In this document: positions 1,279 to 47,200 of the stretch, one piece after another
Numbering within the stretch: the first letter of the stretch is position 1
Layout of the letters: each line of letters begins with the position of its first letter
Source of the DNA: Flavobacterium sp. W4I14
GTDB lineage: Bacteria; Bacteroidota; Bacteroidia; Sphingobacteriales; Sphingobacteriaceae
Direction: 5' to 3'
DNA length: 64,000 nt
Assembly (NCBI GenBank): GCA_030817875.1
Contig: JAUSZU010000001.1
Coordinates: forward strand, 3,720,001-3,784,000
Position numbers and translations under genes: made by a program
The notes under the pieces: model-generated
What the model was told of the DNA's origin: nothing
What the model saw: the letters and a program-made list of their open reading frames with translations, nothing else
Databases searched by the model: none

Positions 1279-4200
1279 TTATAATCCAATGTTTAAACCT
1301 ATCATGAAAGTAGTTGGCTTTGGATAATCGAAAAATGTTTGACCTTGTGCAAATGCATTTCCATAGGTAGTTACCTCAGGGTCGTTACCTGTATACTTGG
1401 TTGCCAGGAAGAAATTCTGAACAGATGCATAAACACGAAGTTTGCTTAAGCGTAATTTTTCAACAAGTGTTTTATCAAAAGTATAACCCAGTAAAAGGTT
1501 TTTTCCACGGATGAAAGAACCGTCTTCTAACCAATGGGTATCTACGTTGGTTACATATCCGGCAGATTGATCCCTGATTGCGGCAATCGGTGTATTTTGA
1601 TTCTGGGGAGTCCAGGCGTTTAATACGCTGGCAAAACTATTGGCCTGTACCTGTCTGTCTTCACCTGAGTGATGGGTCATATTCAACACATCATTGCCAT
1701 AAGAATATTGAAGCTCTACAATCAGCTCTAAGTTTTTATATCGGAATGAGTTACCAAACGATCCCCAACCTTTTGGCGTTCCGCTACCAATAATCTGACG
1801 GTCGGCATCAGTAATGGCATGATCGCCGTTTACATCTAAATATTTAATATCGCCTGGGAGCAAAGTTTTACCACCCCGGTAACTTACATATTTGGCTGCT
1901 TCTGCCCTTTCGGCCTCGCTCCAGGTTCCTAAACGTACAAGCCCCCAGAATGAACCCACAGGCTCACCTACCCTGATAATACCAGTTTGATTGGTGAAAT
2001 TTGGGTTACCCACACCAAAGATATCATCAGGAGTAGCCAAAGAAAGTACCTTGTTACGGTTAAGGGAGATATTGAAACTGGTTTTCCAGGTAAAATTGTC
2101 GGTTTGTACGTTTACCGTATTAATCCCTAAATCTAAACCTTTGTTCTGCATAGAGCCGATATTTTTTCTGATCACCGAGTATCCTGTGGTACGTGGAACC
2201 GGCGCATCCAATAACATATCGGTTGTTTTTCTATAATAAAGATCGGCCTCTAAATTAATGCGGTTGTTAAACAAGCCTAATTCTAAACCCGCATCAACCT
2301 GTGCTGTTTTTTCCCAAACCAGATCCGGATTCGCTAACCTGCCGATACCAATACCGGTTACTTTACTATCATTAATAATAGCCGAGTTATTAACCAATGT
2401 AGCGAGCGACTGATAGGCAGGAAGCTCTGAGTTACCACTTAAACCATAACTGGTTCTTAGTTTTAAGTTAGAGATGGTTTTGTTTCCTTTAAGGAAATCT
2501 TCGTCTGAAGCTTTCCAGGCCAATGCTGCCGAAGGGAAAAAGGCGAATTTATGGTTCTCTCCGAATTTGGATGAGCCATCTACCCTACCTGTAAAAGTAA
2601 CCAGGTATTTATCTTTAAAAGCATAGTTTAATCTTCCAAAATAAGAATTAAAAGCCGATCTGTTCCGGCTAGAGCCCACTGTAATCGATTTACTTCCAGA
2701 GCCCATGTTATTGTTTCCGTAAAAATCGGTTACAAAGTTCTCGGCATGGCTGGTATTGCTAAAAAAGCTGGTAGCCTGCCAGGAGATACCCAATAACGCA
2801 TTAATAGCATGCGATTCGGCAAAACGTTTATTATAGGTTAAATAATTTTCCAGTGACCAGAAGGTTTCCCGATCATCAGTTACATTCGCCGTTCCATTCT
2901 GTCCATCAGAGATCCCGTATAATTGTTTGGCATTGTACTCGTTAATATTACGGCTCACAATATTGGCACCCAACTGGGTACGGAACTCTAAATCTTTGCT
3001 AAAGCTAATGGTAGAGTAAATACTCCCCAAAGCAGTTTGGGTAACCATTCCATATTTTTGATCTGTTAAGATGTGTACCGGATTGGAGCCTCCTTCTGCC
3101 CATGGAATCAGTTTATTATCGCCCCACTTGCCATCTGCCAGTTTAATTGGTAGAAAAGGGAATGCTTCTGTAATCATACGGACTGAATTTAAGCCGCCTG
3201 TTCCCTGATCAACAATGTTTTCATTTTGGTTATTGTAGCTCAAATTACCGCCTACCTTTAACCAGGGTTTAATTTTACTATCGAAATTAAACCTGCCCGA
3301 ATAACGTTTTAAATAAGAGTTTAGTAAAAGTCCCTGGTCATCGCGATAGCCTGCAAAAACACCGTAGGTGCTATTTTCGTTTCCACCTGTAAAACCCAGC
3401 TGGTGATTTTGCGAAAGTTTGTTCTGTGTAGATTCTTTTAACCAATCGGTATTATATAATGGATTTCCATTGCCATCGAAAAATTGCGGCAAGGCAATTC
3501 TGGCCGCTTTTGGAACGGGTGTGGATGCGTAACTTCCCGCTGCCCAACCTACCGGATCGTAAACTTTAATATTTTCATAAGCCAGATCCTGCACTTTAAC
3601 ATACTCGAAGGCATCGAGCATCTCAACATGGTGTGCGGCCAGTGTATTGATGCCGAAATCTGCATCATAGGTAATGCGTTGGGCATTTGCTGTTCCTTTT
3701 TTGGTGGTGATTAAAATTACCCCGTTTGCACCCCTTGCGCCGTATATGGCCGTCGAAGAAGCATCTTTTAACACCTCTACTGAAGCGATATCGCTCGGGT
3801 TAATATAATCGATAGCGTTACTGTTCTGTGTTTGCGACCCCACTGGCAAAGCCACACCATCTACCACATAAAGTGGATTGTTGCTTGTATTGATTGAACT
3901 AAACCCACGGATTTTGATATTGGTCTGTCCGCCGGGTCTACCCGAGTTGGTGTTTACCTGGACACCAGAAATACGGCCAGCCAGTGCCTGGTTTAGGGAT
4001 GAAGACGGACGTTCCTGAAGTTCGCTTGCTTTAACCACACCAACAGAACCTGTAAGGTCTGTTTTTTTCACCGATCCATAACCAATTACCACTACTTCAT
4101 CTAACTTATTGGCTTCGGCAGGTGCCATTTTAACGCTAATATTGGCTTCATTGCCTACTGTTACATCTTTATTTTGATAGCCCACATATGAAAAACGGAT

Positions 4201-4479
4201 CACATCATTTGTATTGGCCTCAATGCTGAATTTACCAGCTTCATCAGTTACAGCGGTTTTACCTGACGAAATGTTTTTGATGCCAACTCCAGGAATAGGC
4301 ATGTTTTTTTCGTCTAATACGGTTCCTGTAATTACTTTTCGGTTTTGAATATGCACTAAAGGCATATTTAGCTCAGAAAATCCATCGGATTTTTCAGCAA
4401 CCGGATTCATCGAAAAAGCAGGACTATTGAGCAAAAAAAGCACAGAAAGCCCTGAAATCTTTAGTAGATTGATTTTCAT
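1279..4479 (-). CDS. SusC/RagA family TonB-linked outer-membrane transporter
   Basis: A 1066-residue protein of typical SusC length. A signal peptide (about residues 1-23) is followed by a carboxypeptidase-regulatory-like domain (about 50-125, ITGTVLDEKNMPIPGVGI), a TonB-box-like segment ending VVVIGYG, a plug domain with IRGFSSINTSNNPLYVVDG and VEVLKDASSTAIYGARGANG, and a C-terminal beta-barrel. It imports glycan fragments through the outer membrane using TonB energy. The first gene of a SusCD pair, with the partial SusD gene just downstream. A perfect 22-bp palindrome 256 bp upstream is a candidate repressor site. The substrate is unknown because the rest of the locus is outside the window. 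Confidence 0.95.
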   Translation of the reverse strand: MKINLLKISGLSVLFLLNSPAFSMNPVAEKSDGFSELNMPLVHIQNRKVITGTVLDEKNMPIPGVGIKNISSGKTAVTDEAGKFSIEANTNDVIRFSYVGYQNKDVTVGNEANISVKMAPAEANKLDEVVVIGYGSVKKTDLTGSVGVVKASELQERPSSSLNQALAGRISGVQVNTNSGRPGGQTNIKIRGFSSINTSNNPLYVVDGVALPVGSQTQNSNAIDYINPSDIASVEVLKDASSTAIYGARGANGVILITTKKGTANAQRITYDADFGINTLAAHHVEMLDAFEYVKVQDLAYENIKVYDPVGWAAGSYASTPVPKAARIALPQFFDGNGNPLYNTDWLKESTQNKLSQNHQLGFTGGNENSTYGVFAGYRDDQGLLLNSYLKRYSGRFNFDSKIKPWLKVGGNLSYNNQNENIVDQGTGGLNSVRMITEAFPFLPIKLADGKWGDNKLIPWAEGGSNPVHILTDQKYGMVTQTALGSIYSTISFSKDLEFRTQLGANIVSRNINEYNAKQLYGISDGQNGTANVTDDRETFWSLENYLTYNKRFAESHAINALLGISWQATSFFSNTSHAENFVTDFYGNNNMGSGSKSITVGSSRNRSAFNSYFGRLNYAFKDKYLVTFTGRVDGSSKFGENHKFAFFPSAALAWKASDEDFLKGNKTISNLKLRTSYGLSGNSELPAYQSLATLVNNSAIINDSKVTGIGIGRLANPDLVWEKTAQVDAGLELGLFNNRINLEADLYYRKTTDMLLDAPVPRTTGYSVIRKNIGSMQNKGLDLGINTVNVQTDNFTWKTSFNISLNRNKVLSLATPDDIFGVGNPNFTNQTGIIRVGEPVGSFWGLVRLGTWSEAERAEAAKYVSYRGGKTLLPGDIKYLDVNGDHAITDADRQIIGSGTPKGWGSFGNSFRYKNLELIVELQYSYGNDVLNMTHHSGEDRQVQANSFASVLNAWTPQNQNTPIAAIRDQSAGYVTNVDTHWLEDGSFIRGKNLLLGYTFDKTLVEKLRLSKLRVYASVQNFFLATKYTGNDPEVTTYGNAFAQGQTFFDYPKPTTFMIGLNIGL

Positions 4480-5272
4480 TGGTTTAGGTTTAGTAAATGA
4501 TTAGTTAATAATATATAATTCAACTGCTAGCAGCTAAAACGTTTTATCAATTATTCAATAGAGAATAATTGACGGCAAATCATCATTTTTAATCCGAAGG
4601 CTTTGATTCAAAAGCAATTGTGTGATGGGAGATCGTATTTTTAAACGGGTTAAAAGCTACACACAAATAAACTGCACAGACATATACCGCTCCACAGGGC
4701 GAAAATATTCCTAAGCTCATCATCATATTCGGTTATTGATAAATCGATTTATCAATTCAATATTAAATATTTTATCATAAAATCAAGAATTTATTTTGAT
4801 CGCTGGCAATACGCTATCGTATAAATCTGATTACAGTATGATTACTTTTACAGTGGCAAAAAATTTTGAATAAGTATTTCAGGTAAATGAAAAATAGACA
4901 GGCTGAAATCCATTATGCCTCACCTACTTAAGTGTATTTTTAAGAATTTGATAAAAAATAAGTTTTTTTTCAAGAAAAGAATATCGGTTTTCTCCCCGAT
5001 GACATTCATCAGTACTCCTATTAATTGAAGGGTAATGCGCTAAAACAAGAAAGCCCCATATTGCTATGAGGCCAATTATTTTGTCTTATTCGCATCCACC
5101 AATAAAACTAAACCAAACAAACTAATGAAATTAAAAGACAAATAAGTTTGAGATTTGTTTTTAATAAATAAAAAATCTTTTAATATATTTTATTGCGTTA
5201 TAGGAATAGAAAGATGCTGCAAGTTGAGATCGGTATCAGACCATGATTAAAACGATAGTATAAAATAATTAG
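4480..5272. other. Gene-free stretch upstream of susC
   Basis: No frame here looks coding: it is AT-rich and full of stops. It holds the 22-bp palindrome at 4735-4756 and a short imperfect hairpin at 5053-5072 (GCCCCATA/TATGAGGC, four-base loop, one mismatch) followed by a partly T-rich run. The promoter of the SusC gene must lie here, but I found no exact match to the Bacteroidota -7 consensus TAnnTTTG. Confidence 0.5.
4735..4756. promoter_or_regulatory. Perfect 22-bp palindrome, candidate LacI-type operator for the SusCD pair
   Basis: The half-site ATTGATAAATC is followed directly by its exact reverse complement, giving a spacerless dyad with a central CG. LacI/GalR-family operators typically are such dyads with a central CpG. 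It sits 256 bp upstream of the SusC start. No LacI gene lies beside it in the window, so the cognate regulator is unknown. The dyad is seen directly; the operator role is inferred. Confidence 0.5.
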
Positions 5273-5800
5273 GCTGTATCATAAATACAGAATTGTCATC
5301 TTGAGAGGTTAGAATTTTTAAAATACATCGGAGTGTGGATGACAGGTCTTGACGGTTCGTCACTCCCAACCCGATAGCTATCGGGTTGATTGGGAACCAC
5401 GCAGTGCTCATGAATGCCTTTGAAGAGAAGAAAGCCTATGAATAATCGTAATGCAAGCGCTTTAAGATTCCCGCCTGCGCGGGAAAGACGACCTCTCTTT
5501 TTAATCTATCATTGATAGGGTTAATTTATAGTATAAAAATCAATATAAATGGCATGATTTTTTAAAGAACTGTGGCTGCGAGGAATCGTCATTGCGAGAA
5601 GGCTTTTTCAGCCGACGAAGCAACCTTACAACGATCGCTAACAGCGGGCGCATTAAGATTGCTTCGTTCCTCGCAATGACGATTTTTCTATTAGAGTCTG
5701 TCAATGTTAGCTTGTCGAACGTCCTATTTTAAATATCTTACAAGGCGTTTCGACAAGCTCACATGACAAATTAGAAGTGAATTACAATTTATGATACAAC
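5273..5800. repeat. Nested palindromic intergenic repeat (MITE-like composite)
   Basis: Outer ends are inverted copies of a 14-base word (GCTGTATCATAAAT at 5273, ATTTATGATACAAC ending at 5800; 13 of 14 match). Inside are several further dyads: ACCCGATAGCTATCGGGT near 5369-5386; TTCCCGC/GCGGGAA near 5468-5486; a long imperfect inverted repeat at about 5584-5684 whose arms begin and end with AATCGTCATTGCGAG and its complement; and a pair of AGCTTGTCGAA/TTTCGACAAGCT arms at about 5709-5760. No coding frame is visible. Repeats of this style are scattered through Bacteroidota genomes. The block separates katG from the SusCD locus. Confidence 0.65.
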
Positions 5801-5829
5801 TTCTTTATAATCCTGTGATACATTTAAGC

Positions 5830-8121
<2,292 letters not shown>

Positions 8122-8366: not shown

Positions 8367-9755
8367 TCAGAATATACCCAGAAATTTCTTCTTCTTTTTA
8401 CCGTTCTGTTTCCTGGCTTTTTCGGTTGCTTTTACTTGCTGCGCCCATTGCATTTTTGCTTTCCGGATGCTGTCTTCTCTCGCTTCTTGTAGCGCTTGCC
8501 TGTATTGCTGATTTGCGATTTCAAATGGTGACCGGTATGGGGTTGTCGGCACGGCCGTAATATTATTGTTTTCTGTCTTAGTTAAGCTGTAAACTACAAA
8601 GGCTACAACTAAAGTACAGGCGGCAGCGTAACCTAAAAAAGCCTTTCTTGGGGCATGGATGTAATTTTCCTGGTGATATTCACCGGTCGAAGTATTGTAT
8701 TTTATTCCGGCCTTCAGGGCCAGGGATTTTAATGTGGCCAGCTCTTTTTCGAGCTTTTCGTTCTTTTGCTGTGTCTCACCATATAAGGCGGCATAACGCA
8801 GGGCTTCGTTAGGCATGGTGTTTTCTGTACGGCCAATATCTTGTGGGGCCGACAATAGCCCGGCAGTAACTGCCTTCTGCAATTCCATTCCATTGGCATA
8901 TCGGTCATCTGGATTTTTTTGCAGGCATCGCCCGATCAGCTCAATCAACCAGTAAGGTACCTGCATTTCCGCATGCAGAATATCGTCCTGAAAGGTATCT
9001 TCCAGATTGCTTTTACGCAGTGACATGGCATCGGGGATTTCCTTTTCAAGATGTGAAATCATGACCGTATTGCGGGCGGTATCGCCTCCCCCTTCGAGTG
9101 GAAAAGGTACCTGCCCGGCCAGGAGTTCATACAGAATGATACCGTAACTATAAATATCTGTCTGTAACAACATTTTTCCTTCGTGCTGTTCCGGTGCCAT
9201 AAACTCTACTGCCCCGGCATGGCGAATGCTTGTTCTGCGCTGCTCTTCACTCATAATGGCCAGGCCAAAATCCAATAGCACATAATTGGCAGTCTGCGTA
9301 TTGTACTTCACATTATTGCTTTTAACATCGCCGTGTTTGACCCCAAACTGATGACAGTGTGCAAGTGCCGCAGCCAATTGTTCAGCGACTTTTAACAGTT
9401 CTTTAACAGTGAAAACTTTTTGATGCGGAGGCAATAGCAGTTCGCTAAGTTCGGGGCCTTCGATGTATTCCATTTCTATATAAGGAAAGGACCCGCTGTC
9501 GGTAATCCCTGAACTAAGTATCTTTACGACGTTCGGGCTGGGATGGATGTTTACCTGCTGCAGCTTATTCACTTCATTGAGAAAATTCCGGTAATTTTTA
9601 TCGCTGTCATCTTCCACGTAGATTGGTGTAGGAATAAGTTTGATGGCAGAATAAACCGGTCCCATGCGCATCCCTTTGTAAACAGACCCCTGCCCACCGG
9701 TTTTTAATGCGCCAAGGTTTTGTAGCCCTTCTGTAATTGTAAAAATTTTACTCAT
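8367..9755 (-). CDS. Membrane-anchored Ser/Thr protein kinase (last gene of the kinase-FHA-PP2C-FtsW/PBP operon)
   Basis: A 462-residue Hanks-type kinase. Visible motifs: glycine loop GGQGSVYKG (residues 20-28), ATP lysine Lys39, alpha-C Glu61, catalytic loop HGDVKSNN (141-148, Gly in place of the usual Arg of HRD), DFG at 162-164 and APE at 187-189. The kinase domain ends near 300; a likely coiled coil (about 320-350) leads to one transmembrane helix (about 372-391) and a basic, Gln-rich tail of about 70 residues. The HGD form suggests a non-RD kinase whose activation-loop control differs from RD kinases. It overlaps the FHA gene by 8 bp and is a close paralogue of the kinase at 17310-18653, so the operon is bracketed by twin kinases. 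Confidence 0.93.
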   Translation of the reverse strand: MSKIFTITEGLQNLGALKTGGQGSVYKGMRMGPVYSAIKLIPTPIYVEDDSDKNYRNFLNEVNKLQQVNIHPSPNVVKILSSGITDSGSFPYIEMEYIEGPELSELLLPPHQKVFTVKELLKVAEQLAAALAHCHQFGVKHGDVKSNNVKYNTQTANYVLLDFGLAIMSEEQRRTSIRHAGAVEFMAPEQHEGKMLLQTDIYSYGIILYELLAGQVPFPLEGGGDTARNTVMISHLEKEIPDAMSLRKSNLEDTFQDDILHAEMQVPYWLIELIGRCLQKNPDDRYANGMELQKAVTAGLLSAPQDIGRTENTMPNEALRYAALYGETQQKNEKLEKELATLKSLALKAGIKYNTSTGEYHQENYIHAPRKAFLGYAAACTLVVAFVVYSLTKTENNNITAVPTTPYRSPFEIANQQYRQALQEAREDSIRKAKMQWAQQVKATEKARKQNGKKKKKFLGIF

Positions 9756-10548
9756 GATGCTGCGGCTTAAAGCTAAACTCCAATACGACAGATTCGCCTA
9801 AGATAATCTGATCTCCCTCGGCTAATTCTTGCCCGATCTGGGTAGCATGGAGTTTTACGGTCTCTTCGGTAAGTGCTGAACGAAGTTTGACCTTATTGCG
9901 GGGTGGTATTCCACCTTCATCTGCAAAGATTACAAATTTGGCTATGCTGGTATCCCATTCGATATGCGCATGCTGCCTGCTGATGTACTTATTTCGTTCA
10001 TCATCACTTTCAGATGGAAATGCAATGTGGTTGGTGCGGAAATAACCCTCATCAGACTGTGCCTTTTCATCTCTGCCGATATTGTATTTTCCACCCGCTG
10101 AAGTTATTTCGTAGATTGGCTTTAAAGTCTTGCCGCTAAGTGCTTTCAGGTAGGCTTTAGCCTGTTGCATAACAAAATGGGTTTTGGTTTTCACCAACAG
10201 TGCTACCGGCAGATTTTGCATTTCAACCGCATCGTCAGGAATAGCTTCATCGAAAGCAACTGTGAGTGACCAGCCTGAGGGCAGATCCAGGGAATAATCA
10301 TCACTGATGCGTTGTATCTCATTTTTTAATTGATCGGGATCCTCGGTAAATACTGCAGCTTCGTACACATGGCGCGCTGCAGGGCTGCAGTGGATAAAAA
10401 TACCTAAACCTTTGATATTTGCACCTTCTCCACCCTCCGCTTTTTGCAACTCCTGTTTTACAAATTGTAGTAATGCGTGCCTGATTCCCTTCACATCATC
10501 GGGATGTTCCCCACTTGCGCTTTTGAAGAGGTCGAATATCATTTTCAT
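9748..10548 (-). CDS. FHA-domain phosphothreonine-binding protein
   Basis: A 266-residue cytoplasmic protein without signal or membrane segment. The C-terminal part (about 150-262) is an FHA domain with its key residues intact: Gly158-Arg159 (YNIGRDEK), Ser190-Arg191 and His193 (YISRQHAHIEW) and Asn218, then GDQIILGESVVLEFSF. The N-terminal 140 residues form a separate alpha/beta domain that I do not recognise by name; its place ahead of an FHA domain recalls mycobacterial FhaA, whose N-terminal domain is DUF3662. It probably binds phosphorylated kinases or the phosphorylated cell-wall enzyme. It overlaps the downstream kinase gene by 8 bp and follows the FtsW/PBP fusion by 130 bp. Confidence 0.88.
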   Translation of the reverse strand: MKMIFDLFKSASGEHPDDVKGIRHALLQFVKQELQKAEGGEGANIKGLGIFIHCSPAARHVYEAAVFTEDPDQLKNEIQRISDDYSLDLPSGWSLTVAFDEAIPDDAVEMQNLPVALLVKTKTHFVMQQAKAYLKALSGKTLKPIYEITSAGGKYNIGRDEKAQSDEGYFRTNHIAFPSESDDERNKYISRQHAHIEWDTSIAKFVIFADEGGIPPRNKVKLRSALTEETVKLHATQIGQELAEGDQIILGESVVLEFSFKPQHHE

Positions 10549-10678
10549 CTGTATATTTTGTTAATGCTTTGCTACTGTATTTATAAAAATTGTCGGACTC
10601 AACACCTGCGCTGTTCCCCATTGTGATGAAGCTATACAAATTATTGATTGATGGTTTGAGTTAAAATGTTTCATATCT

Positions 10679-13600
10679 TCAATTAAATTCCGGTATAGTT
10701 GCATTGTCATCAGTTTTGTCAGAAGGAACAATACTTTTGATATAGCCGCCCTCTTTTAAGAACGGGATTACATGCCTACCTGCCAACCGGACAGCGTCCG
10801 ATGATCCTTTGGTGGCCTCAATGCGTATGCAGACTACAATATGGCCATTGCCAGTTGCAGTCGGTGCAAAAAATACATACCAGCCATCATTAATCTGCTG
10901 TTTCTTCCAGATCCGCTCCGGCGTACCGGTCTTACCTGCAACGGCCAGTCCGAGGGTTTGCGCTTTCGGACTGCTCTGTTTGATCATATACTCCTGCATC
11001 AACCTGGCGTATGCCGGATTGTTTACCAATTTCGTACCAGTTTTTATCGCCTGCGGCTGATCGCTTACTTTAAGTACAAACCTGTTTGCAATCATGTTTC
11101 CATTATTTGCAATCCCGGCAGCCATTCTTGCCACTGCCGCTGGGGTTGCAATAAGTGCACCCTGTCCCCAAGACATTCCGGAAATTCCCTTTGCCCTCGT
11201 CTTTCGGATATTGTTGGGATCATACTTTGGCTTGGTGTTGAATTCGGTCCTTCGCCAAAGCTGTTTCCATTTTTCTTCCTGTGCTGCGTTTTCGCTGGGT
11301 TTATTGTAATAATACCCTCCGGCACCGTGTAGGAACATGCCTGTTTTTAAGTACAGCTCACCCATGTTTTCCTGCAGCTGCTCCTGGTTTGCAAGTTTGA
11401 TAAAATAGACGTTGTTGGATTTCACCACTGCCCGTTCCAAATCAATCCATCCCGTTTCATCCGGCTCGATACCTTTTGTCCGGATACGCTCCCAGGAGGC
11501 CACCTGGTATTTTTTTTCGGCAGCGGCCATGCCTAGTTTATTGAAGGATGCCATGGCGGTAATCAGCTTAGCAGTTGAGCCTGGCTGTGTGAAATTGGTA
11601 AAGCCAAGGTCAGCGGTCGTTGTCCACCCCGAAAGCTGGTTCTGTTCTGCATTGGTCATGGTTAACCGTTCCCAATCATGTATGGGCGGCAGTGGATATA
11701 CGGCTGAAGTAAGGACATCACCAGAACTCGCTTCCATGATCACTACAGAAACCCGGTTATCCGATAATGAAGTGTCGCGGGCAATTGACTTTTGGATCTT
11801 GGTCTGCAGGCCGGCATCCAAGGTTAACTGTACATCGCGGTTTTTATTTTTGAAATCTTCCACCTCTTTGCTGCTGATTCCGGCAAGGAGTAAAGGAGAA
11901 AGTGCGGCATAATCTTTTTTTACGACCGTCATTTCCTTAACTCCCCGTGCCAGGAAACGGTTTTCGCTGTATCGCTTTGCAAGTACTGTAAAACTCTTTA
12001 GAGGCAGTTTAAAGCCGCGGAGTTCGGCTGCGTGTTCATAATCGGCAAAATAGCCGTTAATACTTCCGTTAAATATACCTGAATTTGCATCGCCTGTCCA
12101 AAAAAACAGTTGTTCTTCAAAAGGATAATAGCGGTCTAAACGCTGATGTACCGCCGAATCGAGATTGTAATTCGGGATACCTGCACCCATGAGCTTAAAG
12201 TGTTGTGCCTTAACACTGTCGACGTTGCTGGTTGCCATTAAAATTCCCTTGCGGTCGTGTATGGTTCCGGCTTTTAAACGGCTCATCAATATTGCGATCC
12301 GGGGATTGTAACTGAACATTCTCGCGCCGCTGCGATCGGCTACCAAAGCCGGCTGTACTACCCATTTCCGGTTGTTTAACACATAGCCTGCTACATTAAC
12401 TCCCAATAGCAAGATGCCCAAACAGGCTGCAATTAAGGCCGGCACCAGATTTTTGTCCTGCGTTTTAGCGATGTACTGCATCTGTACATCGCTGCCCCGC
12501 ACGGCAGATACCGACATTAAAAATCCGGCCGCTAAAAAATTGAGTACGAGTGATGATCCCCCATAACTTTGAAAGGGCAGCGATACCCCCGATAGCGGTA
12601 GCGCTCCGGTAGAACCACCTGCGATGAGCAGAAACTGTACAAAGGTGGATACGCCGACCCCTGCACTTAAATAAAAGAGAAATGGTGATCCGGTCCTCCT
12701 CCCGATAATAATGGATCGGTGAAGGTACAACAAGAACAACAGGAAGATGCACAATATGCCAGTCAATCCAAATTCTTCACCTATCGAGGGTAAGATCATA
12801 TCGGTATGTGCTTCAGGAATGGTTTTGGCAAAGCCCTGCCCCACTCCCTGACCAGTTGCGCCACCGGTAGACATGGCCCATAGGCCGTTGGCCACCTGGT
12901 CGCCTCCATAAACCTCATTGTTCCAGGCATCCTGCCAGATGGCTTTGCGATCTCCCAGGCGCTGCACAGGCCCAGGGAAGACGCGGTCCAGATATGGAAT
13001 CTGATCAATCGTTAAAAAAGCCGACATGATCACCAGCACCATGATGGCGGACTCACTGAGCTGCCTGCGCCCGAAAAACATCAGCGTACCAACCAAAAGC
13101 AAGGTAATCGCGGTTGATATCCATACGTTTTCAAAAATCCATGAGGACAATACGTACAACACGATAGCGCCTGCCATGAACATAAAATCGCCCCGGGAGA
13201 ATGAAAATAGTATAATAAAGGTGAAACAAACCACCATCGCCGGACCAAGATCTCCCAATATCAGAAATAACATGAGCGTTAACAGTATTGCCAATAGGGC
13301 AAAGGAGAAAAATGACCACCTTTTTTTCCAGCTCATATATTCACTGATCAGTTTCTCGTTTACGGCAAAAAATCCTGCAAGAAAAAAAATGATCAGATAC
13401 TTTACCACTTCACTAGGCTGAAATCCGAACAGGTTTACCTTTACACCACTTCCTTCTGGCCCGGTTCCGAATAAGATAGTGAGTGCCAGCAATCCAATGG
13501 CGGCCAGGGCCCATGGCCAGCCGTTTGCGGCTGATCGGATGTTCTTAAATAAAAGCAGGCGATAAACCCAGGTATCGGTATTGAAACGACGCAGTTTAAT

Positions 13601-14782
13601 GCACAGCATCAATAAGATACCCCCGAAACCCATGAGCAGGTATAAAAGGGAATCTTTAGCTAAAAAACGGTCGCGCAGCGGATCCTGCAAACTCAGCAGC
13701 ATCAGGAATGATATGCCAGTAAGCATCATCACTACGGGCAATATAACCTGATCGGCAGCGCTGAATTTCCATGACAGGATGAAGTGGAGAAGTAAAAATC
13801 CACCAATCAGGCTTCCGCAGATGATCATAAACCACTTGTTGAATTCTTCGGGTGTTCTAATGATCAGTGATTTTTCCTTTTTGAGGATATTAAAGTCTCT
13901 GGTAGAGAAAAGCTTTATCGTATGTGGGCGCTGTTCAAATGTGAAGGCGATATTTGCATCAAGGTTTTGTACGCCCTTTGAGGCGCCAAACTGAAAACCT
14001 GGTTTTAAAGGCAAGATCTTGAATGCCTGGTTGCCAGGCAACTTGGCAAAAGTGAATTCCCCGGCAGTACCAGTGCGGGCATAGGCAGTAAGCTGGAGTA
14101 ATTTCCGTTTACCGGCAGTATCCAAAGTATAAACCTTTGTAATGCCATTGGCCTTTTCAGTTATATTTTTAATGGTTTCTGTCGGCTCGTCGTTGTAAAT
14201 ACTGTCCTGTGGCAGTATCATTTCCAAACGGACCAAAACACCAGGCGCAGCTTTTTTATTCTCTACGATTTTTCCACTGATAGCATGCTCGCCCATGCCG
14301 AGATTAACCTGGGCGGGGTATGGACGGGGTTTACTTTGCTCCTGGTCGAATTTAAGCGAATCATCGCCCGTATAACCAAGCAATGCCCGGGATGCCAGCA
14401 CCCTTGCTTTAAATGATTTACCCCCTTTTTTATAGGCCTCATCTGCAGACAAAAAGTACCTGCGTTTGTTCACTTCGCCGATGTTGTCGAGTTCCTGGGC
14501 ATTAGGCGTTGCAGATGCAATGGTTTTTTCTATCAGATCAATGTCCCGCTGATCTTCAAAATAGTAACCTTTTTTAAGTAGGTTGCGGATATGTTCGACA
14601 GGTTTTTCGGCATTCAGGTTAACCATCGTGCCTGCTTTTAAGCGTGGCGCAACTTCTTCAAACCTGGGCTGAATGATTGCGTATAATTGGTAGAAGAAGA
14701 GCGCGAGAACGGTTGCGGTTGCGAATATGAAGATCCGTTCCTGAGTCCGGCTCACTTTGACAGTTCCTTTATTCTGCTCCAT
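10679..14782 (-). CDS. FtsW/RodA glycosyltransferase fused to a penicillin-binding transpeptidase
   Basis: A 1367-residue fusion. Residues 12-34 are a membrane helix; about 35-310 are predicted periplasmic and include a carboxypeptidase-regulatory-like fold (HAISGKIVENKKAAPGVLVRLE to LPGNQAFKILPLKPGF). About 315-760 is a SEDS polymerase (FtsW/RodA) with the signature PEAHTDMILPSIGEEFG, where Asp661 matches the catalytic Asp of RodA. After another helix near 800-815, a class B penicillin-binding transpeptidase follows with Ser1069-x-x-Lys1072 (GSTAK), Ser1122-Asn-Asn and Lys1284-Thr-Gly-Thr. All catalytic residues are present, so one polypeptide could both polymerise and cross-link peptidoglycan. 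SEDS and class B PBP are normally two partner proteins. The gene overlaps the PP2C gene by 14 bp. Confidence 0.95.
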   Translation of the reverse strand: MEQNKGTVKVSRTQERIFIFATATVLALFFYQLYAIIQPRFEEVAPRLKAGTMVNLNAEKPVEHIRNLLKKGYYFEDQRDIDLIEKTIASATPNAQELDNIGEVNKRRYFLSADEAYKKGGKSFKARVLASRALLGYTGDDSLKFDQEQSKPRPYPAQVNLGMGEHAISGKIVENKKAAPGVLVRLEMILPQDSIYNDEPTETIKNITEKANGITKVYTLDTAGKRKLLQLTAYARTGTAGEFTFAKLPGNQAFKILPLKPGFQFGASKGVQNLDANIAFTFEQRPHTIKLFSTRDFNILKKEKSLIIRTPEEFNKWFMIICGSLIGGFLLLHFILSWKFSAADQVILPVVMMLTGISFLMLLSLQDPLRDRFLAKDSLLYLLMGFGGILLMLCIKLRRFNTDTWVYRLLLFKNIRSAANGWPWALAAIGLLALTILFGTGPEGSGVKVNLFGFQPSEVVKYLIIFFLAGFFAVNEKLISEYMSWKKRWSFFSFALLAILLTLMLFLILGDLGPAMVVCFTFIILFSFSRGDFMFMAGAIVLYVLSSWIFENVWISTAITLLLVGTLMFFGRRQLSESAIMVLVIMSAFLTIDQIPYLDRVFPGPVQRLGDRKAIWQDAWNNEVYGGDQVANGLWAMSTGGATGQGVGQGFAKTIPEAHTDMILPSIGEEFGLTGILCIFLLFLLYLHRSIIIGRRTGSPFLFYLSAGVGVSTFVQFLLIAGGSTGALPLSGVSLPFQSYGGSSLVLNFLAAGFLMSVSAVRGSDVQMQYIAKTQDKNLVPALIAACLGILLLGVNVAGYVLNNRKWVVQPALVADRSGARMFSYNPRIAILMSRLKAGTIHDRKGILMATSNVDSVKAQHFKLMGAGIPNYNLDSAVHQRLDRYYPFEEQLFFWTGDANSGIFNGSINGYFADYEHAAELRGFKLPLKSFTVLAKRYSENRFLARGVKEMTVVKKDYAALSPLLLAGISSKEVEDFKNKNRDVQLTLDAGLQTKIQKSIARDTSLSDNRVSVVIMEASSGDVLTSAVYPLPPIHDWERLTMTNAEQNQLSGWTTTADLGFTNFTQPGSTAKLITAMASFNKLGMAAAEKKYQVASWERIRTKGIEPDETGWIDLERAVVKSNNVYFIKLANQEQLQENMGELYLKTGMFLHGAGGYYYNKPSENAAQEEKWKQLWRRTEFNTKPKYDPNNIRKTRAKGISGMSWGQGALIATPAAVARMAAGIANNGNMIANRFVLKVSDQPQAIKTGTKLVNNPAYARLMQEYMIKQSSPKAQTLGLAVAGKTGTPERIWKKQQINDGWYVFFAPTATGNGHIVVCIRIEATKGSSDAVRLAGRHVIPFLKEGGYIKSIVPSDKTDDNATIPEFN

Positions 14783-16214
14783 TTTTCGAATCTGCGGTTT
14801 TAGGGGTGTTACGTTTTAGTGTACCAATCTTCATCAATTCTGCATTTACCGGTTTCCGGTCAAGGAAATAAATGCTGTTCTGTACCGGAAGTAAACAATT
14901 GGTGAAGGTGACATTTTTGAGTAACAGTGCCTGGTCTGAAATGGCGATAGCGGTAGCGAAGCCTTTAAACTGCAAACTGTCCAGCTTCAATAGACTGGAT
15001 TGAGGGAGCATCGTTATCGCTGCACCTTTGTATCCGCTATCCGCTTGCAGCACAATACCCTTTGCCATAACATACAGGGTGTCTTTCCGCAGGCGTAACG
15101 TATCACTGATCAGAACCGGACTTTTAAAAATCGAGTCGGATAGTACCAGCGTGTCACCCAGGGCATGGTCAAATGCATCTTGCAGTAACTGCTCCTGACT
15201 GTTTCTCATCTTTTGTTTGGGTGATGGATTTAGTGTTGAAACAGGGGCTGCTGGATGCTGATTCTGCAGGTACATAAATATGGTAGTGCCAAGAAGGATG
15301 AGGCATAAAATAACCAGCGCGGTGAACCGATAATTTCTTTTGGGCGATTCAGGAGTTGCCAGTTTTGGATTTTCAAGCGGCGGTATGGCCTCATTTCTTT
15401 CTGCTCCTACTGTTGCCTGGGCCTGTTGTGTATAGTCTGGTCTGGTGGGTTTTACCTCTTGAGGCTTTTTGTTGTTCTGCAGCAGTACAACGGTGATGTT
15501 GTCACGCCCGCCGTTTTCATTGGCAAGTGCAATGAGATTGCCTGCTTTTTTAGCAAGCGTATCTCCTTGTAGAAGCAGGGTAGTAATATCCTGCCTGTTT
15601 ACCATATCGGTCAACCCATCACTGCATAATAAGAGAAGATCGCCAGGAAGGAAAGGAGATTGACCAGTTTCAATATAACTCTCATCGGTAGCAATCTGAT
15701 CACTAAAACCGATCGCCTTATTGATTTCATTGCGTTTTGGATGCTGCATAGCAGCAGCCTCATCCAATCTTCCCGAATCTTCCAGAAAACCTACAAACGA
15801 ATGGTCTTTAGAGATTTTGATCAGCGATCCGTCCCGCAGCAGGTATAATCTGGTATCGCCAACGTGCGCATAATAAAATTGATTATGCTCAATATCTGCA
15901 ATGACCATAGTGGCCACACAGGCCATTTCGGAAAGTTCTGCCTCTGTTTGCTTTTTGGCAATGATTACTTCATTTGTATTCCTGAATGCCATGATCATCT
16001 CCGAGATTGGATCGGCCGGACGACCTGAGAATTGGATCGAAATCTGTTCCGTAGCAATACCCGCCGCTACTTCGCCGCCATGATAGCCGCCTACGCCGTC
16101 TATTACAGCTGCCAAAATCAACTGCTCGTCGGTGAGGGACTTAACAATAAAGCTGTCCTCGTTATTGTCTCTGGATTTGCCGGTGTCTGTGAGGCCAAAA
16201 AAGTGTTTATCCAT
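14769..16214 (-). CDS. PP2C-family Ser/Thr phosphatase with one membrane helix and an exported C-terminal domain
   Basis: A 481-residue protein. The N-terminal 245 residues carry the PP2C metal-binding motifs: SRDNNED (Asp20), VIDGVGG (Asp39), AHVGDTRLYLL (Asp120), LLCSDGLTDM (Asp199) and GGRDNITVVLL (Asp238). A proline-rich linker leads to a transmembrane helix (about 297-316). The remaining 160 residues should lie outside the membrane and read like repeated short beta-strands (ISDTLRLRKDTLYVM, GAAITMLPQSSLLKLDSLQFKG, AIAISDQALLLKNVTFTN), suggesting a small beta-helix or beta-solenoid sensor. It would reverse the kinase reactions of this operon, as PstP does in mycobacteria. It overlaps both the microprotein upstream and the fusion gene downstream. 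Confidence 0.93.
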   Translation of the reverse strand: MDKHFFGLTDTGKSRDNNEDSFIVKSLTDEQLILAAVIDGVGGYHGGEVAAGIATEQISIQFSGRPADPISEMIMAFRNTNEVIIAKKQTEAELSEMACVATMVIADIEHNQFYYAHVGDTRLYLLRDGSLIKISKDHSFVGFLEDSGRLDEAAAMQHPKRNEINKAIGFSDQIATDESYIETGQSPFLPGDLLLLCSDGLTDMVNRQDITTLLLQGDTLAKKAGNLIALANENGGRDNITVVLLQNNKKPQEVKPTRPDYTQQAQATVGAERNEAIPPLENPKLATPESPKRNYRFTALVILCLILLGTTIFMYLQNQHPAAPVSTLNPSPKQKMRNSQEQLLQDAFDHALGDTLVLSDSIFKSPVLISDTLRLRKDTLYVMAKGIVLQADSGYKGAAITMLPQSSLLKLDSLQFKGFATAIAISDQALLLKNVTFTNCLLPVQNSIYFLDRKPVNAELMKIGTLKRNTPKTADSKNGAE

Positions 16215-16305
16215 TTTTATTACGGGAATTTTTAATGTCTTTAAAATGAACGATCATCAGCGCAACGACCAGTGATAACAATAAAATTGATAGCAGCTGC
16301 GACAT
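16207..16305 (-). CDS. 32-residue single-helix membrane microprotein
   Basis: This short frame fills the gap between the FHA-like gene and the PP2C gene exactly. Its ATG lies 3 bases after the stop of the upstream gene, and its stop overlaps the PP2C start (ATGGATAA, 8 bp). The predicted product starts MSQLLSILLLSLVVALMIVH, a single hydrophobic helix, followed by a polar basic tail (KDIKNSRNKNG). The tight packing on both sides supports real translation. No function is known; a membrane partner or regulator of the kinase, phosphatase or FtsW/PBP protein is a guess from context. It may instead act only as a translational coupler. Confidence 0.55.
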   Translation of the reverse strand: MSQLLSILLLSLVVALMIVHFKDIKNSRNKNG

Positions 16306-16308
16306 AAG

Positions 16309-17262
16309 TTAGGATTTAAATAGGTTTATACCGATTATGCCGTTGAGCAACATCCTGGAGTTCAGCGGCAAAGAAACCCATTGTGGTGAATTGATTTCGC
16401 TGCGTGGTACCAAAACCTCGTTCAAAGTAGTAAGTTCGCCGAAAGAAGCTAAATAGAAATTACCGTCTGTTTTGTTATAGCGGATGTGTAGGTGTGGTGA
16501 ATTGGCCCACTCTGAGGCAATCTTGAAAATATTGGAATCTTCGCGCCCGTCATCATTTCCCGAAACGATAGTATCTTCTGTTTTAATTAGGAACTCTATT
16601 TTTTTGCCCGAAAACTGCTTGTCGGGTATGATGGCTTCCAGCCGGCCGAAAACGGCCTGGTCCTTGGGCGGGGTCGTATTACCATCAACATATTCCAATT
16701 GAGCATCGTATGGGATTTCCATATAGCCTTCACTGTAGTAAGTGAAGCCCTTTAAAATATCGTTGTTGATATCGAATGTCTGCGCAATACCGGTTTGTCG
16801 GGGAATGAATGTTACACGGAGATTTTCTGATTTCTGATTGTTGTCTGGCAGCAATTTTCCGATAAAACCCTTATCGCCCCTTGCGTAATCGGGATGTGAC
16901 ACCAACCGGAATACCCATTTTGAGCCTGATGGCTCTACATTTTTCCCGGCTTGCCGGTGTTCTCTTAAAATCGCATAGAATTTTTTAACTGTTTCCTGTA
17001 CGATTAAGCCCAAAATTCCTTGTTTATTGTCGATAAATTCACGGTAATCTTCAGCGTTGAAGGTGATAATGAATTCATGATAAAAAACGATGCGATCGGC
17101 AAAAGATAATTCCCTGATGGACTCCTTAAATTTATCGACGATAAAGCTGTAGATGGTTTCCGGAGTGAGTTGCGGTGCTTTTTGGGCACTACTCTTGTTT
17201 TCATCGGTTAGAAACCAATCCTGAATACCGATACGCTGCCAGAAATTTGATTTTGTTTCCAT
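16309..17262 (-). CDS. Degenerate FHA-like protein of the kinase operon
   Basis: A 317-residue cytoplasmic protein. About residues 35-130 form an alpha/beta domain (LSFADRIVFYHEFIITFNAEDYREF). The C-terminal 100 residues read as an FHA domain: a GNDDGREDSN stretch at 235-244 where the Gly-Arg pair would be, SPHLHI at 255-260 in place of SRxHxxI, GELTTLNEVLVPR, and an ending SLPLNSRMLLNGIIGINLF typical of the last FHA strands. The key Arg residues for phosphothreonine binding are absent, so it may bind phosphopeptide weakly or act as a scaffold. The two-domain layout resembles mycobacterial FhaA (DUF3662 plus FHA); that link is an inference. It lies 47 bp after the first kinase gene. Confidence 0.6.
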   Translation of the reverse strand: METKSNFWQRIGIQDWFLTDENKSSAQKAPQLTPETIYSFIVDKFKESIRELSFADRIVFYHEFIITFNAEDYREFIDNKQGILGLIVQETVKKFYAILREHRQAGKNVEPSGSKWVFRLVSHPDYARGDKGFIGKLLPDNNQKSENLRVTFIPRQTGIAQTFDINNDILKGFTYYSEGYMEIPYDAQLEYVDGNTTPPKDQAVFGRLEAIIPDKQFSGKKIEFLIKTEDTIVSGNDDGREDSNIFKIASEWANSPHLHIRYNKTDGNFYLASFGELTTLNEVLVPRSEINSPQWVSLPLNSRMLLNGIIGINLFKS

Positions 17263-17309
17263 AAATTAGGGTGCCTATGCGGCGGTTAAGGGCAATTGTT
17301 TTTAAAAAA

Positions 17310-18653
17310 TTAAAACTGTACGGGACTAACTGAAGTATCAGGGTTAAGGTCTTCGGCACTATCGGTAGCTTTATCTTTGGCTTTTTTGATCTCCGCGTTG
17401 ATTGCACTATCCACCATCCGCTTTGTTGCTGCTGCTTCAGCCAGCTTGCGCTGATTCGCCATTCTCCTTCTTTCCTGTGCTGTGGTATCAACTGCCGGTG
17501 GGATTGAATCTATGGGCTGTATTGCTTGCTGTGCCTGTGGCTCGCTGCGAAACTGTGAATAGCCCAAAAAAGCAATCAATCCAATAATTGAGATGACCAT
17601 AAGGGCAAACGCAAAATGAGATAACAGTATACCGTTTTTTTCCGGAGCCTGGGCTATACTTTCAAGTTCCAATACCTGTTTACGGAGCATATCGTTCTCC
17701 GTTTTGAGCGAATCCATAGCTGAATGGTCCATGGGTAAAACATTGCCCGATAAGCTTCCGCTAAGCACCGCTTCATGCAAGACCATTCCATCGCTGTATC
17801 TGAGCATAGGATCTTTCTGCAGGCATTTTTCGATCAGTTTTAGAAGCCAATCCGGAACCTGCATTTCACGGGTTTTCTGGTCCTCGGTCCAGTCCGTGGG
17901 CAAGTTTGCTTTTCGCAGGCCTACTACGTCAGGCACTTCGCTTTCCATATGACTGATCATTACCGAATTACGCCCGGTATCACTATTTCCAGAAAGTGGA
18001 AAGGGAACCTCACCTCCGAGTAATTCATATAAGATGATGCCATAACTGTAAACATCGGTTTGCAGCAGCATTTTACCTTCATTTTGTTCGGGCGCCATAA
18101 ACTCCACCGCACCTGCATGCCGAATACTACTTCTACGTTGCTCCTCACTCATAATAGCCAGTCCAAAATCCAGCAGCACATAATTCGCTGTATGCAAATT
18201 GTATTTAACGTTGTTACTCTTAACGTCGCCATGTTTTACCCCAAGTTTATGGCAGTGCTCAAGGGCAGCAGCGAGATGTTGCGCAACTTTTATAACTTCG
18301 CTTAGCGTAAATATCTTTTGATGTGGGGGTTGGAGCAGTTCACAAAGATCAGGTCCTTCTATATATTCCATTTCAATAAATGGGAAGGATCCGCTTTCGG
18401 TTATGCCAAAACTGAGCATTTTTACAACATTCGGACTTGGATTTTCATTTACCTTGAGCAACTTTGCTACCTCGTTTTCAAAATTGCGGTAATTTTTATC
18501 ATCGCGGTTCTCGGTGTATATTGGAGTAGGGATTAATTTCACTGCGGAGTAAATTGTACCCATGCGTTTCCCTTTATATACCGATCCCTGTCCGCCCGTT
18601 CGCAGCGCTCCTAAATTCTCTAACCCTTCTGTAATTGTAAATACTTTACTCAT
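17310..18653 (-). CDS. Membrane-anchored Ser/Thr protein kinase (first gene of the operon)
   Basis: A 447-residue paralogue of the kinase at 8367-9755, nearly identical in the catalytic core: glycine loop GGQGSVYKG (20-28), Lys39, Glu61, HGDVKSNN (141-148), DFG (162-164) and APE (187-189). A heptad-like stretch (about 312-335) precedes one transmembrane helix (about 342-364). The tail of about 80 residues is rich in Ala, Lys, Arg and Asp and differs fully from the tail of its twin, so the two kinases probably respond to different extracytoplasmic cues or partners. Being the first gene, it would be transcribed from a promoter just upstream of 18653. Confidence 0.93.
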   Translation of the reverse strand: MSKVFTITEGLENLGALRTGGQGSVYKGKRMGTIYSAVKLIPTPIYTENRDDKNYRNFENEVAKLLKVNENPSPNVVKMLSFGITESGSFPFIEMEYIEGPDLCELLQPPHQKIFTLSEVIKVAQHLAAALEHCHKLGVKHGDVKSNNVKYNLHTANYVLLDFGLAIMSEEQRRSSIRHAGAVEFMAPEQNEGKMLLQTDVYSYGIILYELLGGEVPFPLSGNSDTGRNSVMISHMESEVPDVVGLRKANLPTDWTEDQKTREMQVPDWLLKLIEKCLQKDPMLRYSDGMVLHEAVLSGSLSGNVLPMDHSAMDSLKTENDMLRKQVLELESIAQAPEKNGILLSHFAFALMVISIIGLIAFLGYSQFRSEPQAQQAIQPIDSIPPAVDTTAQERRRMANQRKLAEAAATKRMVDSAINAEIKKAKDKATDSAEDLNPDTSVSPVQF

Positions 18654-44205: not shown

Positions 44206-47200
44206 CTACTTTTTGCTTAGTTTTTTGGCGATATACACTGATGGCAGCATATTAAATTCTTGTTTAAAATACTTGGTAAAGTACTTTGGGTTGTTGAAAC
44301 CAACCTCATAGGCAATTTCGGAAACGGTTAGCTGCGATTTTTCCAAAAGCTGGATTGCTTTTCTTAAGCGGTAAAAACGGATATACTCTACCGGAGATTT
44401 CCCCGTTAAAAGCAGTACTTTTTTGTAAAGGCTTACACGGCTCATGTTCATGTCTTGGCTCAGCTGATCTACAGAATAATCAGCATTGGATACATTGGTT
44501 TCGATCAGCACAGAAAGCTGCCGCATAAATTTTTCATCAACAGACTCTATTTCATCGGCTTTGGGACTGATATCGACCTGCTTTTTATATTTTATCTTCG
44601 AAGATGCTAACTGTTTCAGCTGATTTTTGATTTTGAAAAGCAGTATTTCAAAATTAAAAGGTTTCATTACATAATCATTAGCCCCGGTTTGAAGACCAGA
44701 AAGTTGCACCTCTTCGCCGGTAAGTGCGGTCAGTAATATTACCGGCGTATCGGCAGTGCGTACATCGCCTTTAATTTTTTTACACAGATCGATACCGTTC
44801 ATTCCGGGCATACTGATATCGCTCACCACCAGATCTGGATGGGCAGATAAGACTTTTTGCCATCCCTCTTTTCCATTTACGGCTTCGTAGATCTGATAAA
44901 ATTCGTTTAAATTATCTTTTAAATAAAACCTAAAGTCATCGTTATCCTCTACCAATAGTAACACAGGTTTTTTATCGAATCCCGATACAGCCTCATCATT
45001 ACTTTCTTCGGTTGCTACTCTGGTAGACAGCTTAGCTGTAAAACTGAGCTTACTATTTTCTACTATTGTTACATCCGCCTCATCAAAAGGAATTTTAACT
45101 GTAAAGGTAGAACCCGCACCAACCTTACTTTCAGCCCAAATCTCACCACAATGCAAGCGGACAAACTCTTTGGTAATGGCCAAACCTATTCCGCTGCCCT
45201 GATTAACAAGAGATCCTGGGATATCGCTCTGAAAGAAGCGGTCGAATATCCTGTTGAGTTTATCTTCTTCAATACCGATACCGTCATCGCTAATACTGAT
45301 CAAAAGACAGGTTTGATTAAAATTATTCAGCGTCGAACTTAACAGCACACTAACCGATCCACTTTCGGATGTAAATTTAAATGCATTGGAAAGCAGATTG
45401 AACAGTATCCTTTCTATTTTATCATGATCAAAAGCTGTGATTAAGCTGATGAGTTCGGATTCGAAATAGAATTTAATATTTTTCTTTTCGGCAATATCGG
45501 TAAAAGAATAGGTCAGGTCTTTTATAAAATCGACCACATCGCCAAGTTTGCAATCAAGCTTTAACTGCTGCACTTCCATTCTTCTGAAATCAAGCAGCTG
45601 GTTTACCATGTTCAGCAGGCGCCGCCCATTTCGATGGATCATTTGCATCTGCTGTTTTTTTCCTTCGTCTGCTGTCTGTCTGATTAGTTTTTCCATCGGG
45701 GTAATGATCAGTGATAAAGGTGTACGAAACTCGTGACTTACATTGGTGAAAAATTTGATCTTCATCAGACCCAGATCGTGCATACGTTTTGCCTCATGGC
45801 GCTCCTGCTCCAACGCAAATTCGCGTTTTAATTTTTGGATACCGCGGTGTCTGATCAGAAAAAGTATTCCGCCGGCAAGCGCAAGATAAAGCAAATAAGC
45901 TAATGGCGTTTTCCAGAAGGGTGGCAATATTTTGATAGAAATTCTTTTCTCGTTCGATACCCAATCGCCTGCAGAATTGGTAGATGAGACCCTGAACACA
46001 TACGATCCCTGATCCAGATTGGTATAAGTTGCCCTGCGTAAATTCCCTGTAGGCTCTTGCCAGGTTTTATCAAAGCCTTCCAGCATATACCTGTACCTGA
46101 TCTTATCAGGGTTAAAGTAATTTAATGCTGTAAATTCAATCGAAATTACGTTATGTCTATGGGTTAAAGATAAATTTTCCGAACTATTTAAGGTTTTATG
46201 CAAGATCACCTCTCCATCAATCTCCTCGTTAACCGCCACGCTTTTATCGGCAATCTGCAGCTCAGAAAGGGCAATTTCAGGTGTTGTATGATCAGTCCTG
46301 ATATCATCTGGCTTAAATAGATTAAAACCATTTGCACCTCCGAATATCAGTTCGCCGTTTTTGGTAATATAACCGGAATTGATATTAAACTCCCTTCCCT
46401 GCAGGCCGTCCTGCTGATCGTAATTTCTGAAGGTGTAAGTAAGACCTTTATCCGTTTTTTTTACCTTGATAAATGTTAAGCCTTTTGTGGTGCTTAACCA
46501 AAGGTTGCGGTTTTTATCTTCAAGGATCTTTAAGGTATTGTTATCAGGAAGCCCATTATCAATTCTAAACACATCAAATTGGTTGTTTTTAGGGTTATAG
46601 CGGTTCAGTCCATCCCTAGTTGTTACCCAGATATACCCATAACTATCTTCCAGGATATCATAAACATTGCCATTGCTCAGTGAGTTTTTGAGGTGTGGGT
46701 CTGCATTAAAATGCTTGAATTTCCCTGTTTTCTTCTCCCAAAAATCCAGACCTGAAGAGGTGCCGATATAGGCATTGCCATATTTGTCTTTTAATAAAGT
46801 CGTAATAAAATTAGACCCTATAGTATTGGTTGATGAATAGGCCTTGTAATGCGAAAAGGTGCCTTTTGAACGGTCCAGTACGTCGATACCTGCACCCAAA
46901 GTGGCAATCCAGAGCTTTTGGTCATCCCCTTCAATAATATCCCATATCCGGTCATCGCCAAGGCTCCTGGCATTGTTTGGATCGTGGCGGTAATTTTTAA
47001 AATTCTGTCCGTCAAAACAGTCCAAACCGCCAAAATAAGTGCCGATCCACAGTTTTTTTTGATCATCGATAAATAAGCTTACTACAATATCGTTGCTGAT
47101 ACTATTGGTATTATCGGCCTGGTGACTATAGGTCTTATAACTTTGTGTTTTTCTGTTGTAATAAATCAGCCCTTGTCCATTGGTGCCAATCCATAGATTG

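Follow-up and report, generated by a model that had tools for sequence, protein, structure and literature searches.

Within a 64,000-nt window of the genome of Flavobacterium sp. W4I14 (6.45 Mb, one contig), seven minus-strand genes form an operon that probably encodes a self-contained, phosphothreonine-controlled accessory peptidoglycan synthase and represents a divergent homologue of the actinobacterial fhaA-fhaB-pstP-rodA-pbpA-pknA-pknB locus. We assign this reading, which was reached from sequence and predicted structure, a probability of roughly 0.6. The products are two membrane Ser/Thr kinases (KinA and KinB), a degenerate forkhead-associated (FHA) protein resembling FhaA, a microprotein, a PP2C phosphatase, a single-chain fusion of a SEDS polymerase with a class B penicillin-binding protein (PBP) transpeptidase, and a second FHA protein. 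Support comes from a constant operon order, invariant catalytic residues in the fusion, the kinship of its SEDS domain, and intermediates that link the degenerate FHA protein to FhaA through the FhaA_N domain. It comes also from the conservation of the microprotein, from a relative in which phosphatase and synthase are fused, and from the fact that the operon holds the sole PP2C and the main kinases of the genome.

A preliminary description of this DNA had named the gene order in relatives as one observation that could refute it, and that order is kept. Among the 101 loci with sufficient flanking sequence, 89 carried all five core families (FhaA-like, PP2C, fusion, FHA, and kinase) inside 9 kb of a single strand, which excludes a chance assembly, and the order FhaA-like protein, microprotein, PP2C, fusion, FHA protein was constant, with examples in Pedobacter, Mucilaginibacter, Segetibacter, Niastella, Spirosoma, Larkinella, Fibrella, and further genera. 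No neighboring gene beyond this core was conserved across the loci examined. When the coordinates of the seven genes were re-derived (Table 1), they came out as originally given, with overlaps of 8 bp between the microprotein and PP2C genes, 14 bp between the PP2C and fusion genes, and 8 bp between the FHA and KinB genes. The domain names proposed earlier hold as well, by Pfam matches and, for both FHA folds, by AlphaFold/PDB comparison. Promoter and terminator scans yielded site numbers no higher than those in shuffled sequences.

Table 1. Genes of the operon, with positions in the 64,000-nt window and the basis of each assignment (TM, transmembrane).
Product	Length	Position	Strand	Basis
KinA, Ser/Thr kinase	447 aa	17310..18653	-	Pfam Pkinase 124.6 bits
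Degenerate FHA protein (FhaA-like)	317 aa	16309..17262	-	AlphaFold fold and profile link; no Pfam match
Microprotein, one TM helix	32 aa	16207..16305	-	Sequence, ortholog counts, dN/dS
PP2C phosphatase	481 aa	14769..16214	-	Pfam PP2C 50 bits
SEDS-transpeptidase fusion	1367 aa	10679..14782	-	FTSW_RODA_SPOVE 144 bits, Transpeptidase 84 bits
FHA protein	266 aa	9748..10548	-	PF00498 in orthologs, AlphaFold FHA fold
KinB, Ser/Thr kinase	462 aa	8367..9755	-	Pfam Pkinase 124 bits

Both halves of the fusion carry catalytic residues that are invariant in its relatives, namely the SEDS catalytic Asp (D661 of the HTD motif, HTDM) and the transpeptidase motifs SxxK (S1069/K1072, in QPGSTAK at 1066), SxN (S1122, SNN), and KTGT (1284). 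The protein also has an extra N-terminal TM stretch and a periplasmic segment, the latter carboxypeptidase-regulatory-like in relatives. Because the host genome also encodes complete canonical pairs, with FtsW and FtsI at 3.52–3.53 Mb and RodA adjoining PBP2 at 3.39 Mb, the fusion constitutes a third SEDS-class B PBP synthase. It shares with those pairs the combination of polymerase and transpeptidase and the conserved catalytic motifs, but differs in being fused, in its position on the opposite side of the SEDS tree, in having signaling genes of its own, and in being additional to both. In one relative (genome G420, locus L120, 7262–11416), PP2C, SEDS, and transpeptidase are joined in one open reading frame (ORF) of 1384 residues, whose PP2C part falls inside the clade of operon PP2Cs; phosphatase and synthase are thus physically tied in at least one lineage. 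A gene for a LysM/SLT lytic transglycosylase lies close upstream of this triple fusion (3949–6153). Elsewhere, a second SEDS-transpeptidase fusion was seen in genome G373 (locus L118), with kinase and DUF4384 genes close by and without an adjacent FHA or PP2C gene, and many Priestia plasmids in the plasmid collection carry an extra ftsW gene.

The fold search used full AlphaFold models of the two FHA proteins, and its matches were filled by FHA domains. For the degenerate protein (predicted local distance difference test, pLDDT, 80), C-terminal residues 203–317 adopt a predicted FHA fold (Z 14.7 to the MDC1 FHA domain) in which the canonical set of phosphothreonine-site residues is incomplete. 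FhaA_N (PF12401) had no match in the host protein or in 43 close orthologs. At the same operon position in three loci from other Bacteroidota classes (L116, L117, and L119), the gene encodes FhaA_N together with a canonical FHA domain, with FhaA_N scores of 27.4 bits (L119) and 26.5 bits (L117), above the Pfam cut-off, and 19.9 bits (L116), below it. Profile comparison of the Pedobacter-type FhaA-like proteins with these FhaA_N-FHA proteins gave E 8.7e-9 for the FHA part and a weak match, in register, for the N-terminal part (E 0.002–0.009). Judged by these profiles and the predicted fold, the degenerate FHA protein is probably a diverged FhaA.

The second FHA protein, encoded downstream of the fusion, scored 18.7 bits with the Pfam FHA model, just below the cut-off of 20.7, and PF00498 was found in 45 of its 45 orthologs. 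Its model (pLDDT 86.5) has an FHA fold (Z 14.2 to the DgcB FHA domain) with a motif of the phosphothreonine-binding type, GR...SRQH...NK, of which G158, R159, S190, R191, H193, and N218 are invariant. The N-terminal domain was considered as a second FhaA_N and found no support in profile comparison. At two loci from other Bacteroidota classes (L116, 11435–12805; L120, 11479–12753), the FHA protein that follows the fusion carries an N-terminal Swt1-like HEPN domain (78–90 bits), unlike the Pedobacter version.

KinA retains the catalytic Lys, the HGD loop (HGDVKSNN), DFG, and APE, and has a C-terminal TM region (339–369) followed by a short periplasmic tail; KinB, 55% identical to it, has the catalytic Lys, HGD loop, and DFG and likewise one C-terminal TM region. 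These are the only two strong Hanks kinases of the host genome, and the operon phosphatase is its only PP2C_2 match. The phosphatase consists of a cytosolic catalytic domain with metal-site motifs, one TM region (294–319), and a periplasmic domain of ∼160 residues. Residues 320–481 show repeated short strand-like segments with a beta-helical look and may form a sensor domain. The best NCBIfam matches of both enzyme types lead to the PASTA kinase/Stp systems (PknB, PrkC, StkP, IreK/IreP), with scores below the cut-offs: 147 bits for the kinase model PknB_PASTA_kin (NF033483; cut-off 450) and 207.5 bits for the phosphatase model Stp1/IreP (NF033484; cut-off 230). The operon differs from those systems also in its linkage to a dedicated synthase and in the absence of PASTA domains, for which KinA, KinB, and the six kinases of other genera that were scanned all lacked a match. 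The operon PP2Cs form one clade, and the PP2C tree is compatible with a placement nearer either PstP or Stp1. The kinases are the swapped part of the operon, varying in family and position between lineages: HGD-type kinases flank the core in Sphingobacteriaceae and several Chitinophagaceae, and HRD kinases of another family (∼30% identical) lie between PP2C and the fusion in Cytophagales and Niastella-type genera.

The microprotein (MSQLLSILLLSLVVALMIVHFKDIKNSRNKNG, with the tail HFxDIK) is, by its pattern of conservation, a real and conserved membrane protein. A short ORF with one TM region directly follows the stop codon of the FhaA-like gene, within a few bases, in 95 of 106 cases, as against 3 of 1325 other genes at the same loci, and 97 of 98 such ORFs share the motif [HN]Fxx[ILV]. 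Substitutions are mostly synonymous, with a ratio of nonsynonymous to synonymous rates (dN/dS) of ∼0.11.

In the actinobacterial-type locus, genes for a PP2C, a SEDS protein, a class B PBP, and a Ser/Thr kinase are linked, as they are here, and the pknB-fhaA cluster has been reported from Actinobacteria and a subset of Firmicutes (PMC6554272). Outside Bacteroidota, our comparison drew on a handful of records from the plasmid collection, several of which are chromosomes or chromosome pieces labeled as plasmids. The reference loci of Tsukamurella (L135) and Actinomyces oris (L171) have the order FhaA, FhaB, PstP, RodA, PbpA, PknA, PknB; PstP of Tsukamurella is present though unannotated. In the SEDS tree, a branch with support 100/99 in three data sets placed the fusion, the RodA of the actinobacterial locus, and a clostridial FHA-linked SEDS protein on one side; on the other were the FtsW and RodA of Bacteroidota, proteins of Firmicutes and Proteobacteria, and the actinobacterial FtsW controls, which grouped with canonical FtsW. 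This split persisted after the longest branches were removed, and approximately unbiased (AU) tests rejected a grouping of the fusion with the SEDS proteins of its own phylum, whether these were taken together (p 0.0003) or as RodA (p 0.0001) or FtsW (p 0.014) separately. The least diverged fusions scored 161–184 bits with the actinobacterial profile versus 117–140 bits with the Firmicutes FtsW profile, and nearly all fusions scored clearly lower with Bacteroidota RodA/FtsW profiles. Since the SEDS domain lies on the side of the actinobacterial locus and FhaA_N intermediates exist, the likeness between the two loci looks like homology, by old transfer or common descent, rather than convergence.

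The preliminary description had equated the parts of this operon with those of the mycobacterial wall-signaling cluster. That comparison is supported for the set of parts and for the wall as the likely aim, and fails for PASTA domains, for separate RodA and PbpA, and for the place of FhaB. Both systems cluster an FhaA-type protein, a transmembrane PP2C, a SEDS protein, a class B PBP, and membrane Ser/Thr kinases, keep the relative order FhaA, PP2C, SEDS, PBP, and have SEDS domains of one clade. In the present operon, however, SEDS and PBP are one polypeptide, PASTA domains are missing, the kinases flank the core or precede the fusion and vary in family, and the FHA gene comes after the synthase; a microprotein gene rather than an FHA gene lies between FhaA-like and PP2C, where FhaB would be expected, the FhaA-like protein has a degenerate FHA domain, and the distribution is patchy and accessory. 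A clostridial operon of Monoglobus pectinilyticus (L134), whose SEDS protein shares the fusion's side of the tree, has an FHA gene directly before SEDS and class B PBP genes, but the two synthase genes are separate, the FHA protein is small, and no kinase or PP2C gene is adjacent. What is known here is the kind of wall-signaling locus; the single-chain synthase, the microprotein, and the exchangeable non-PASTA kinases are new features. The earlier statement that no description of such an assembly was known agrees with our own finding of none for Bacteroidota or Gram-negatives in searches of open-licence papers.

In the proposed mechanism, drawn from the parts and from knowledge of their families, membrane-bound KinA and KinB would respond to a signal from the envelope by phosphorylating threonines that face the cytosol. 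Their likeliest targets would be each other and the tails or loops that the operon's membrane proteins expose there. The FHA protein, possibly together with the FhaA-like protein, would read the phosphothreonine and recruit or gate the synthase, whose SEDS half would polymerize lipid II and whose PBP half would cross-link the product. The transmembrane PP2C would remove the phosphate and so reset the switch, and the single-TM microprotein may serve the complex as a small subunit with a structural or regulatory role. We infer each causal step, including the direction and targets of phosphorylation, the signal, and the synthase activity. In Mycobacterium smegmatis, fhaA, fhaB, and the locus kinases control growth and division, and knockdown of the pstP operon alters the cell wall, septa, and phosphoproteome (PMC6554272), the latter result lending support to a phosphothreonine-controlled wall synthase here.

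Several observations weigh against this interpretation. The signaling input may differ from that of the actinobacterial locus, given kinases that lack PASTA domains and belong to lineage-dependent families, and much of the phosphothreonine site is missing from the FhaA-like protein. In the transpeptidase tree, where the fusion sits on a long branch, groupings with PbpA (p 0.28) and with FtsI (p 0.52) are both accepted, so that the tree does not single out PbpA as kin, and the faster-evolving fusions (Pedobacter, Spirosoma) mostly score slightly higher with the Firmicutes FtsW profile than with the actinobacterial one. Distribution is patchy even within the host genus, at 21 of 36 genomes, which speaks against housekeeping control of growth.

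Orthologs of P0002 were found in 21 of 59 sampled relatives, every one of the host genus. The fusion was present in 41 of 201 Sphingobacteriaceae genomes and, in a profile search across the phylum, in 15 of 395 genomes that span several families and at least two classes. Among named genomes, a scan turned up 299 relatives, the best 80 of which include Spirosoma, Larkinella, Fibrella, Rudanella, Niastella, Paraflavitalea, Segetibacter, Mucilaginibacter, and Pedobacter. The whole operon is borne by a 137-kb plasmid of Spirosoma oryzicola (NZ_CP089545.1; L132, 8432–18988), so the module is able to move, and this copy together with the patchy distribution points to an accessory role. The fusion of Flavobacterium sp. 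SUN052 (L190) is ∼65% identical to that of Spirosoma, nests among Fibrella and Rudanella in the tree, and has an FHA gene ∼8 kb away; its sequence placement likely reflects transfer between orders, or else a mislabeled genome. A viral or phage origin of the operon was set aside, with no relative in IMG/VR.

The leading rival concerns biological purpose, and we regard it as rather unlikely. It holds that the operon is a device for cell-wall stress or antibiotic tolerance, in which a kinase-activated alternative SEDS-PBP enzyme replaces canonical synthases that are blocked, for example by beta-lactams, in functional likeness to IreK/IreP with PBP4(5) of enterococci. A third, patchily distributed synthase alongside complete FtsW/FtsI and RodA/PBP2 pairs would suit such a role, as would its partial horizontal mobility and a transpeptidase domain distant from every other PBP in the tree, but no resistance gene or regulator was found among the conserved neighbors.

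A control device with broader duties appears improbable. Here the kinases, PP2C, and FHA proteins would form a general signaling hub serving stress responses, metabolism, or type VI secretion, with the synthase as a single client or a chance neighbor. Kinase-PP2C-FHA triads do govern the type VI secretion system (T6SS) in Proteobacteria, the operon PP2C has a raw BLAST score to Rhizobium T6SS-linked PP2Cs at least equal to that to Stp1, and the operon is the only strong kinase/PP2C set of an organism that itself encodes a T6SSiii. Yet every locus is built around the synthase, the kinases being the part that is swapped, and in G420 the synthase is fused to PP2C. Like the PpkA-PppA-Fha pathway of T6SS, the operon encodes a kinase, a PP2C, and an FHA protein together; unlike that pathway, it is centred on a wall synthase and has no T6SS gene in its neighborhood. 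The preliminary description had noted no secretion-system gene nearby, and this was borne out across the loci examined, where none recurred within ∼9 kb. The sheath gene tssC of the host T6SSiii (genome G000, 4728833–4730122) lies ∼1 Mb from the operon, and co-occurrence of T6SSiii with the operon across Pedobacter was not significant (Fisher p = 0.16). With the sheath gene unlinked and the association non-significant, control of T6SS was rejected as a function.

Convergence, which the preliminary description had left as one of two options and by which Bacteroidota would have built a kinase-FHA-PP2C set around their own duplicated SEDS-PBP pair, fits kinases of unrelated types without PASTA domains, long branches, and a transpeptidase tree open to several placements, but is made distinctly improbable by the SEDS tree, the AU rejections of the phylum's own SEDS, RodA, and FtsW, and the FhaA_N intermediates.

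Other genes of the window lie outside the operon. Directly downstream is a gene for the catalase-peroxidase KatG (5830–8106), kept there in close relatives only, and positions 44206–48333 encode a hybrid two-component regulator (propeller, histidine kinase, receiver, and AraC helix-turn-helix domains) of a type common in Bacteroidota.

As a tentative extension, to which we give somewhat less than even odds, FHA-linked SEDS proteins may be a third ancient class beside FtsW and RodA, with a FhaA-PP2C-SEDS-PBP-kinase module that is older than the divergence of Actinomycetota from Bacteroidota and was condensed in the latter into single-chain synthases, of the SEDS-PBP or even the PP2C-SEDS-PBP kind, with a dedicated transmembrane microprotein. 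If this is true, phosphothreonine control of wall synthesis was not a Gram-positive invention. To our knowledge, work on Ser/Thr phosphorylation of wall synthesis has been almost confined to Gram-positive bacteria and mycobacteria. The operon would give a large Gram-negative phylum a comparable module, built around an optional synthase that supplements the complete canonical ones, and because the module is optional, its deletion or rebuilding would probably be non-lethal. The gating of a SEDS-PBP enzyme by FHA proteins, kinases, and PP2C thereby becomes directly testable, the wall synthase gains a new candidate subunit in the microprotein, and the natural SEDS-PBP and PP2C-SEDS-PBP fusions offer single-chain material for structural work.

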